A stretch of DNA of 64,000 nucleotides, from the NCBI RefSeq assembly GCF_000006445.2, contig NC_006048.2, positions 1,736,001 through 1,800,000 on the forward strand. Direction: 5' to 3'. The notes below the pieces were generated by a model. It did no database searches, was not told the origin of the DNA, and saw only the letters and a program-made list of their open reading frames with translations. Each line of letters starts with the position of its first letter. The first letter of the stretch is position 1. Positions 15,070 to 20,650 of this stretch are shown one piece after another. This DNA comes from Debaryomyces hansenii CBS767 (taxonomy: Eukaryota > Ascomycota > Pichiomycetes > Serinales > Debaryomycetaceae). A program made the translations under genes and the position numbers.

Positions 15070-16284
15070 ATGAAATTTACCCAAGCTACTATTGCTGCAT
15101 TCGCGGCCTTGTCCACTGTTACGTTAGCTGCTCCAGCACCAGCACAAGACGAAGATTGTGCTACCACTCAAGTGCACGCTCACCACAAGCATAAGAGAGA
15201 AGTTGTCTACGATTACGCTTATGTTACTGTCACCGTGGATGGAAATGGTAAGGCTGTTGAAGGTACCGCTACCTCGTTATCCACTGCCACTTCTGCCACC
15301 CAAGAATCCGAATCTACTTCCACCACCTCGATTGCTTCCACTACTTCCGTTGAAGAATCTTCATCTGCTGCTACCTCTGAAGCTTCCTCCACTGAAAGCT
15401 CTTCTAGTAGCGCTGCTAGCTCTTCAAGTTCTGCTTCTACTGGCTCTAGCGGTAGTTCTGGTTCTGTCCCAACCGGTGACTTATCTGCTTTCGAAGATCC
15501 ATCTGAAGACTTTGAAGACGGTACCATCTCTTGTTCCGACTTCCCATCTGGTCAAGGTGTTGTTTCTTTAGACCACTTAGGATTCGGTGGTTGGTCCGGT
15601 GTCGAAAACTCTGACGGTTCCACCGGTGGTAACTGTAAGGAAGGTGCTTACTGTTCGTACGCCTGTCAATCGGGTATGTCCAAGACTCAATGGCCATCTA
15701 ACCAACCTCTGAACGGTGTTTCTATCGGTGGTTTGTTATGTAAGGGCGGTAAGTTGTACAGATCTAACAAGGACCAGAATACTTTGTGTGCTTGGGACGA
15801 AAACAAGGCCAGTGTTGTTAACAACTTGTCCAAGACTGTCGCTATCTGTCGTACCGACTACCCAGGTACCGAAAACATGGTTATCCCAACCGTTGTTGAC
15901 GGTGGTTCCTCGTCTCCAATCTCTGTTGTCGACCAATCTACTTACTACAAGTGGAAGGGTGGCTCTACCTCCGCTCAATACTACGTTAACAACGCCGGTG
16001 TCGACTGGACTGATGGTTGTGTCTGGGGTACCTCAGGTTCTGGTATCGGTAACTGGGCTCCTTTGAACTTCGGTGCCGGTTACGACAACGGAATTGCCTA
16101 CTTATCTTTAATTCCAAACCCAAACAACAAGGATTCCTTGAACTTCAAGGTCAAGATCGTCGCCGACGGTGACTCCACCGTCAGCGGTGATTGTACCTAC
16201 GAAAATGGTAAGTACAACGGTGACGGTACCGATGGTTGTACTGTTGGTGTTACCAACGGTAAGGGTAAGTTCGTCTTATATTAA
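15070..16284 (+). CDS. SUN41: Secreted SUN-family cell-wall protein (SUN41/SIM1 type)
   Basis: A 404-aa wall or septum protein of the SUN family (Sim1/Uth1/Nca3/Sun4), beta-glucosidase-like, active in cell separation and wall remodelling. Seen: signal peptide (residues 1 to about 20, cleaved near TLAAPAPA), a Kex2-type KR at 42-43, a Ser/Thr-rich linker to about 135, then the conserved SUN domain with the exact signature C-x5-C-x3-C-x24-C starting at NCKEGAYC. ATG 15070 is chosen because the short upstream in-frame extension has no ATG. Codon use is strongly biased to preferred codons, so expression is probably high. One CTG codon (15709-15711) stands where I recall serine in relatives. Its last codons and terminator are duplicated at 19.85 kb. 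Confidence 0.93.
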   Translation: MKFTQATIAAFAALSTVTLAAPAPAQDEDCATTQVHAHHKHKREVVYDYAYVTVTVDGNGKAVEGTATSLSTATSATQESESTSTTSIASTTSVEESSSAATSEASSTESSSSSAASSSSSASTGSSGSSGSVPTGDLSAFEDPSEDFEDGTISCSDFPSGQGVVSLDHLGFGGWSGVENSDGSTGGNCKEGAYCSYACQSGMSKTQWPSNQPLNGVSIGGLLCKGGKLYRSNKDQNTLCAWDENKASVVNNLSKTVAICRTDYPGTENMVIPTVVDGGSSSPISVVDQSTYYKWKGGSTSAQYYVNNAGVDWTDGCVWGTSGSGIGNWAPLNFGAGYDNGIAYLSLIPNPNNKDSLNFKVKIVADGDSTVSGDCTYENGKYNGDGTDGCTVGVTNGKGKFVLY

Positions 16285-16415
16285 TTCGTTTAGTTCTACT
16301 CTTTAACTACCATTTTTCTTTTTGAATGAATTGAATCTAATTTGTTTCTACATCCCGTTGTATTTTATGCTGTATATTATAATATAATTGTTTCTATAGG
16401 CCTAACGTAGTCTTC
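16259..16415 (+). repeat. Direct repeat copy A: SUN gene last codons and 3' UTR
   Basis: From the last seven codons of the SUN gene through its 3' UTR, this stretch is nearly identical (about 88-90% by eye, few indels) to 19847-20008, in the same orientation 3.6 kb away. Weaker similarity may continue about 40 bp more. Confidence 0.9.
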
Positions 16416-18960: not shown

Positions 18961-20650
18961 GGTAATTTGATAGTTATGGATAAATGTGTAATCAGTCAAT
19001 AAACTATTCAGTCAAGTTAGCTATAACATAGAATGTATTTGTTTGGCTTCCTTTTATAGTAGAATTATTTTAAAGTATGAGCAGAATATTTGCAACCGGC
19101 TGCGAAATGAAGCCAAATGAAGCAAAATGATGTCTCTTAAGTTATACAATTGGTATGTTGATATAATTGCTTTGTTTATGTTACCTCAATCTAGCTCCAC
19201 TACTCTTAGTTATTTCTAGATTAAGTCAAATGGTTTGAGAAGGGCGTTGTTGAATGAGTTACTTGATGCTAATTCAAGTAATAATTCATTATTATGTAAT
19301 CTTAATACTCTACATTCTAAGGAAAGCAATTACTAAAATAAGCATCTAGTATCTGTTGAGTTACTTTCAGCTTCAGTCATCTGTTGTTTACTAGTAGAAG
19401 GCTGCGCCACTATAGGACACCAACCACGAAGCAATGTTTCTACGTATTCTGTAAAGAGACGTATAGGAATCAGTAGAGCTTCACTGTGACAGTTTGAACA
19501 ATTCTATTTAGTTTAATTTATTCAAACATATTAATTAGAACTTCAATTACTGTCAATTTATCAATCATAATTACCGTCTAGGCCCCATAAAGATCAGTTC
19601 CGATGAAGTAAACGCTACTTTGTTATAGTCGTAGTTTTCGTACCGTGCGACTGGAAACTCATTTCAGCAAGCTCTACATCAGAGAAAGTGCTTTGTTCAC
19701 CTTCATCATTATGATTAGTATTAGTTTTATCATTAATCCAACCTGGCTTCCCTGTATATCCGGATTGTTAAAAAATATAGTTATATTATTAAATAATTCT
19801 AAATTATATTTTTATTTTAATTGATTGCTCAACATCTTCTTTCTTAGTAAGGGTAAGTTTGTCTTATATTAATTCGTATAGTTCTACTCTTTAACTACCA
19901 TTTTTCTTTTTTGAATGAATTGAATCTAATTTATTTCTGCATCCCGTTGTATTTTATGCTGTATGCTACAATAGAATTTGTTTCTAGCTAACCTAGCGTC
20001 GTAATTACCACTCCCCAACCCCAATACTCCCCAATTCACTCTAAAAGGCTCCACTATGCCTCTCTTTCCCAGAGCCATATCGCCGGCCGTTAAGATCAAA
20101 AGCAGGACCCGTGATCACGTGCAATCGGCACAATCCTCTTCTCGTTATCGTGCAATCAGAGAAGTTCTACGAATGCCGTCCGAGCGTAGAGGGCATTGTT
20201 ATATACAGTTTGGCAATTATTAGGTACGGAGGACGTTAGCGAGGTCGACGGGGTTCTCAGTACCAAATTGGTGGAGCTCTTGTGATAAGCACTAGATAGA
20301 GATATACTCCGCAAATCATTATGTCCAAAGATAACCCACCTTCACATACCGCTAGATAGCAGGAGGATGAAATGAGGAACAGTTAACGAAATCAAGATAT
20401 ATAGAAAGTGTAAACGAAGAAAAATGGAAATGCAAGACTGTATAATACTTAAATGGAATTTTGGTACGGCAAAAAGAAATATATGCCTTGGAATTTCGCA
20501 ATGACATGCACTTGAAAAAAATTTGATCAAGCATTTCGCTATCTCTGGAATTCGTTTCCTTTTATCTCCAGATCTTATATTAAGGTAAGGATATCTATCT
20601 AGACGTCAAAGTATCACAGATATTTAAGTACGGTTTGTGAATACAAAAGT
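18961..20650. other. Gene-poor region with SUN relic, AT-rich island and permease promoter
   Basis: A 1.7-kb stretch with no intact gene. From left: upstream region of the kinase-like gene; two minus-strand open frames without usable ATG (19333-19503 and 19615-19767) that could be coding relics; an almost pure A/T island (19767-19827); a second copy of the SUN stop-codon and terminator region (19847-20008); then the permease promoter with CACGTG at 20116-20121, a repeated 9-mer CGTGCAATC (20118-20126, 20149-20157) and GATAAG at 20284-20289, a GATA-factor type site. Confidence 0.5.
19847..20008 (+). pseudogene. Direct repeat copy B: relic of SUN-family gene 3' end
   Basis: Begins inside the coding end of a SUN gene (codons for KGKFVLY and TAA stop, 19849-19872) and continues through the matching 3' UTR. 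No SUN coding sequence is found upstream, so this is a fragment and not a gene. It ends where the permease promoter begins. Orientation is the same as the intact gene. Confidence 0.85.

Follow-up and report, generated by a model that had tools for sequence, protein, structure and literature searches.

The closest described counterparts of the locus reported here are the WHO10 insertions of Torulaspora globosa. According to the sections of PMC7282813 that deal with them, these insertions measure 2.8-6.6 kb, the 3' end of the host gene is duplicated in two of five, and some carry fragments of other genes, mainly 3' ends. The combination of a nuclease with a kinase in one protein is also already known, as the relevant part of PMC12693581 describes, and four D. 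hansenii pseudogenes inactivated by mitochondrial inserts (NUMTs) are reported in the corresponding part of PMC2876123.

We analyzed a stretch of 64,000 nucleotides of Debaryomyces hansenii CBS767 (the window), with CTG translated as serine (code 12). At one locus, the 3' end of a SUN-family gene occurs twice, and this direct repeat is unique in the genome. The contents and junctions of the block between the two copies can be read in detail, the gene in the block is one of a family with many copies in the genome, and the same order recurs at a second host gene. An initial annotation had noted the repeat and the gene that it brackets; the two family relics in the block, the mitochondrial insert and the membership of the middle gene in a dispersed family go beyond it.

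Two copies of the SUN 3' end

The intact host gene (Pfam SUN, PF03856, E 1.3e-98) lies at 15070..16284 on the plus strand, and its nearest other match in the genome is at 57%. Its final seven codons, stop and 3' UTR form repeat A (16259..16410, plus strand). Alignment, genome search and tblastn identify repeat B (19847..19996, plus strand) as a second SUN 3' end in the same orientation, whose right-hand neighbor is an amino acid permease gene (20651..22330, plus strand; Pfam AA_permease, E 1.6e-134). The direct repeat of the SUN terminator proposed in the initial annotation is thus real, at 93% over the best 140 columns: blastn aligns 16259-16396 with 19847-19986 at 92.9% identity (E 5e-52). 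Relaxed scoring gives 89.8% over 157 columns. In a stricter alignment, 148 bases are aligned, of which 9 are mismatched; there are 6 gap columns, and the longest stretch of unbroken identity is 28 bases. Similarity begins within SUN codon 397, at its second base, and the repeat accordingly takes in seven complete codons and the stop, which is the content that had been described. It had also been stated that no SUN coding sequence precedes the second copy, and a tblastn search of SUN against the window indeed found none upstream of repeat B (best match outside SUN, E 0.80).

One concern was that the similarity might be limited to AT-rich words common in terminators. A genome search with the repeat returned two places only, both in the window, with no third match, so it is not built of such words. 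When up to 3 mismatches are allowed, a 28-base piece occurs exactly twice in the window, where 0.00 occurrences are expected, and it is absent from the prokaryote genome and viral contigs that we searched for stray yeast contigs. As a control, 30 genes of the window were tested for a duplicated 3' end within the window, and SUN alone had one. The uniqueness in the genome, the 28-mer count and this control together rule out chance similarity. A special secondary structure in the repeat is not supported (z 0.87).

Two further features of the window were seen in passing. Over some 300 residues, the genes at 27897-29732 and 52995-55157 are about 30% identical to each other, and they look like RNA methyltransferases, and a short tandem repeat (11299-11374) lies within a glutamine-rich gene (10895-12943).

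The block between the repeats and its gene family

The block (16411-19846, about 3.4 kb) contains one intact gene, K1, and two relics that derive from different members of the same family. To the right of repeat A come 376 bases that gave no further match in the genome search, then a 5' relic (K2), K1, about 600 bases largely without strong matches, a 3' relic (K3) with a mitochondrial insert, and repeat B. K2 (16787..17001, plus strand) starts about 15 bases upstream of its ATG (16802) and extends to about codon 69. It is 75% identical to C3:150109-150330, matches residues 1-14 and 26-69 of the family copy L028 in tblastn, and has in-frame stops in its translation.

K3 lies on the minus strand in two pieces. 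The first (19606..19767), found by genome match, is 80-83% identical to copies at C7:1582818, C6:2108808, C6:2217005 and C2:510509. The second (19825..19846) is identical to the copy L012 at 20/22 positions and to L020 and L030 at 18/22, a similarity that none of 2000 shuffles equaled. It directly adjoins repeat B: the coding 3' end of the relic meets the repeat with zero bases between. The 57 bp separating the two pieces (19768..19824, minus strand) are a NUMT, identical at 55/57 positions to contig C8, where the source is part of an ORF that precedes the cytochrome b frame. Because the NUMT sits within the K3 relic, its entry was a separate event. By eye, the source ORF has LAGLIDADG-type motifs and resembles an intron endonuclease.

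Both relics have their best matches in subfamilies other than K1's. These subfamilies are separated in a tree of 27 proteins, from which the relics themselves were left out: K1 groups with the database protein P0002, the C2, C6 and C7 copies group with D. tyrocola proteins, and the C3 copy groups with P0058, each with 100/100 support.

K1 (17131..18960, minus strand) encodes 609 amino acids comprising DUF3698 (PF12479) and a kinase domain. Its Pfam matches are to DUF3698 and kinase-type families only, and the Bud32 and Kdo models match weakly, below their cut-offs. The name "kinase-like" given in the initial annotation is apt for the C-terminal part, where residues 395-577 (17230..17778, minus strand) form a kinase domain with HND and DFG motifs. 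It does not describe the middle part. There, residues 60-355 (17896..18783, minus strand) resemble a PD-(D/E)XK nuclease fold, and modeling gives moderate support to the view that the DUF3698 region may adopt such a fold. The resemblance is not significant with Foldseek alone, and the DUF3698 profile found nothing significant among PDB sequences. In the fold search with whole K1, kinase-domain matches fill the matches listed, and a bacterial-defence library matched K1 through the kinase region only.

K1 differs from most of its family at the putative nuclease motifs. It has TN and GDYN in place of the family's PD and GDYK, and P0002, its 81% relative, has TS and GDYN. Among 21 genome copies, PD is present in 19 and GDYK in 20. 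The lysine is missing in 5 rows of a 54-row alignment (K1, P0002, P0030, P0080 and P0088). As for the kinase motifs, HND occurs in 21/21 genome copies and DFG in 19/21 (L021 has NFG and L028 is cut short). Over whole domains, the ratio of nuclease to kinase identity is 0.81 for K1, which is not unusual (0.80 for P0027).

Searching the genome with K1 gave 69 match rows. Near-full-length copies account for 21 of these, and the remainder are relics, fragments or other kinases. One stop was counted inside the match in five of the 21, including L015, for which reading from a start shortly after the beginning of the match gives an open frame. In six close paralogue pairs, dN/dS is 0.28-0.38, and so these family genes are under selection.

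Database matches to K1 number 89, with D. hansenii, D. tyrocola, D. fabryi, Priceomyces carsonii and Scheffersomyces xylosifermentans as the named sources. Among the matches returned, the nearest named D. tyrocola proteins are P0006 (54% over 99% of K1) and P0076 (58% over half), and the nearest named D. fabryi protein is 48% identical to K1; the database is clustered at 90%, and the annotation of relatives may be incomplete. As far as sequence goes, these identities would be compatible with the absence of K1 from both species. P0001, a 99% match with 11 member sequences, suggests that K1 is present in other sequence data too. Two family members, P0003 and P0053, are filed under Staphylococcus equorum metagenome assemblies, and are most likely yeast contamination. 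The term "DUF3698" is absent from the open-access literature that we searched.

A second multi-copy family (family B) was also observed, with proteins of about 650-680 amino acids, a conserved PD...EVKK and a RIO/Bud32-like kinase. It comprises G000 (C4:756903-758933, or L051:2401-4434) and eight more near-full-length copies, which adjoin members or relics of K1's family in several places. The DUF3698 domain and family B did not match in a profile comparison, which leaves layout and kinase as the only links seen here between the two families. Among relics of K1's family on C2 at about 893 kb (L047:2118-2546), there is also an ORF fragment that by eye looks like a chitinase of the GH18 type.

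Explanations for the arrangement

A second locus bears on how the SUN arrangement arose. At C3:144500-154500, an aldehyde dehydrogenase gene (PF00171) is followed by an intact copy of K1's family, a decayed aldehyde dehydrogenase 3' end and a family relic. The decayed tail is identical to the gene at 285 of 386 aligned bases in the CDS part and at 231 of 289 in the UTR part, and the losses are spread about equally across the three codon positions. The search found no further place in the genome for this 3' end. A tandem structure of 2.7 kb is present at this locus, and its homology sets in 18 bases before the start codon. In gap-tolerant alignments, 516/675 bases (76%) are identical in the tail, as against 1614/1807 (89%) in the two family copies.

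Host tails turned up at 2 of the 12 examined family loci that are not subtelomeric, a count that takes in neither the wider flanks of subtelomeric copies nor a fragment at C2:1313-1314 kb, which lies about 31 kb from the end. Among the 11 such loci outside the window, DNA and protein searches found only the aldehyde dehydrogenase fragment. A self-comparison of the family loci places subtelomeric copies inside segmental duplications of up to 99%, and is uninformative on host tails. Nothing else in the genome matches the 1.4 kb that flank the C7 copy on the left.

The explanation that we favor, and consider probable, is that a family-bearing block was placed behind SUN by repair of a break from a donor, with duplication of the SUN tail. 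Most likely, a double-strand break would have occurred at the 3' end of SUN and been repaired with a family-bearing donor. Two routes could have doubled the tail: a SUN tail may already have been present on the donor and been copied from it, or staggered ends may have been filled in. SUN would have kept its complete end, unbroken, with its last seven codons and 3' UTR on both sides of the block, and the mitochondrial fragment would have entered the K3 relic separately. We infer that the whole block arrived in a single event, and that K1's family tends to settle behind genes. This explanation draws on the unique direct repeat, the coding end of K3 adjoining repeat B, the relics from subfamilies other than K1's, the aldehyde dehydrogenase case, the control with 30 window genes, and the precedent of WHO10 with its similar anatomy.

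It is important to weigh what speaks against this explanation. Ten of the 12 loci have no duplicated host 3' end, so that the duplication either does not occur regularly or is lost by decay. What is left of K2 is a 5' end, whereas the fragments with WHO10 are mostly 3' ends. Moreover, ordinary tandem duplication of a family copy plus a gene end can also account for the aldehyde dehydrogenase case, although the tail there has diverged more than the two family copies.

This last point leads to the best of the alternatives, namely that a family gene already stood behind SUN, that a segment reaching from the SUN end into the K3 gene was duplicated head to tail, and that the second unit later lost its family gene. 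The junction of K3 with repeat B is exactly what such an event makes, and the 2.7-kb structure at the aldehyde dehydrogenase locus is a tandem one. However, this scenario would also require an additional deletion in the interval from repeat B to the permease gene and a separate arrival of K1 and K2; a search of 20003-20650 found neither a family relic nor similarity to the block; and the gene tail and the gene copies at the aldehyde dehydrogenase locus have diverged unequally. We regard tandem duplication as possible, but would not expect it to be the answer.

Alternatively, end joining at a chromosome break may have captured several pieces at once, in which case the SUN tail and the family pieces would be mere filler and the family protein would have played no part. 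End joining in yeast can take up nuclear and mitochondrial pieces, also several at a time, according to the pertinent part of PMC11724301. However, the mitochondrial piece lies inside the K3 relic and was hence a separate event, and an intact 1.8-kb gene, along with the recurrence of one family at two host genes, probably exceeds what filler would lead one to expect. We therefore consider this alternative unlikely. Since such capture is also one possible route for the block insertion that we favor, our assessments of the two overlap.

Of the two possibilities raised in the initial annotation, the insertion of a block that left the SUN end duplicated fits better, in view of the family relic to the left of repeat B and the second host gene with the same pattern. 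The other, the loss of a tandem SUN paralogue, is the least likely explanation and a very improbable one: a deletion could leave a lone copy of a 3' end, but SUN coding similarity is absent upstream of repeat B, where the coding end of a family relic stands instead, the genome holds no close SUN paralogue, and the like pattern occurs at an unrelated gene, aldehyde dehydrogenase.

Transposons were considered as well. There are no inverted repeats of at least 16 bases at the block ends, and so a transposon-type mechanism is not indicated. In addition, no tRNA was found in the window, and Rfam gave no match at gathering score in 16200-20650. An LTR or terminal-inverted-repeat transposon is therefore unsupported.

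Comparison with known systems

NUMTs and templated break insertions in yeast are like the 57-bp insert in a pseudogene at our locus, but they leave the SUN repeat unexplained.

The SPOK proteins of Podospora and Fusarium are similar to K1's family in that a nuclease-type domain is followed by a eukaryotic-like kinase with a catalytic Asp, as the relevant parts of PMC6660238 and PMC12693581 describe. PD and GDYK occur together in 19 of the 21 genome copies, and, as with SPOK, there are many scattered copies and relics. This likeness is one of layout and motifs. At its exact spacing, the SPOK cysteine cluster C-x3-C-x13-C-x5-H-x7-H before the kinase is found in 0/21 copies and 0/107 proteins, and the QxxxY motif, which in SPOK follows the catalytic lysine, is found in 0/20 GDYK copies when searched 40-75 residues after the motif start. 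K1 itself, unlike SPOK, has lost the motif residues. By analogy, one could imagine that DUF3698 marks a SPOK-like toxin-antidote family of Debaryomyces and its kin, in which the predicted nuclease would kill and the kinase protect, that it spreads through the genome by WHO-like insertion behind host genes, with replacement and duplication of their 3' ends, and that K1 at SUN serves for protection only, with a kinase that was kept and a nuclease site that has decayed. We find this joint reading unlikely. If the block insertion that we favor is right, host 3'-end capture is not confined to WHO elements, and selfish-looking genes have a more general route into compact yeast genomes that leaves the neighbors unbroken. 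It also draws attention to DUF3698 as a little-studied yeast family with a nuclease-kinase-like layout, in a food yeast that is open to direct tests for killer-type drive.

The WHO and WHO10 elements of Torulaspora and Lachancea offer the closer parallel in anatomy. As the part of PMC7282813 on these elements describes, they too place a gene behind a host gene that stays intact and whose 3' end is duplicated, in a cluster with older relics and gene fragments, and they have many divergent members and pseudogenes. In the WHO-type order, the newest copy lies nearest to the host. At the aldehyde dehydrogenase locus, the intact copy is nearest and the relic lies beyond the host fragment; at the SUN locus, there are relics on both sides of K1. 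A preferred host gene was not found for K1's family, in contrast to WHO. The proteins also differ: those of WHO are intein-derived endonucleases with a zinc finger, according to the same source, whereas K1 combines DUF3698 with a kinase. Since K1 and the WHO proteins are unrelated by Pfam, the K1 block appears to work like a WHO element, but it is not one.
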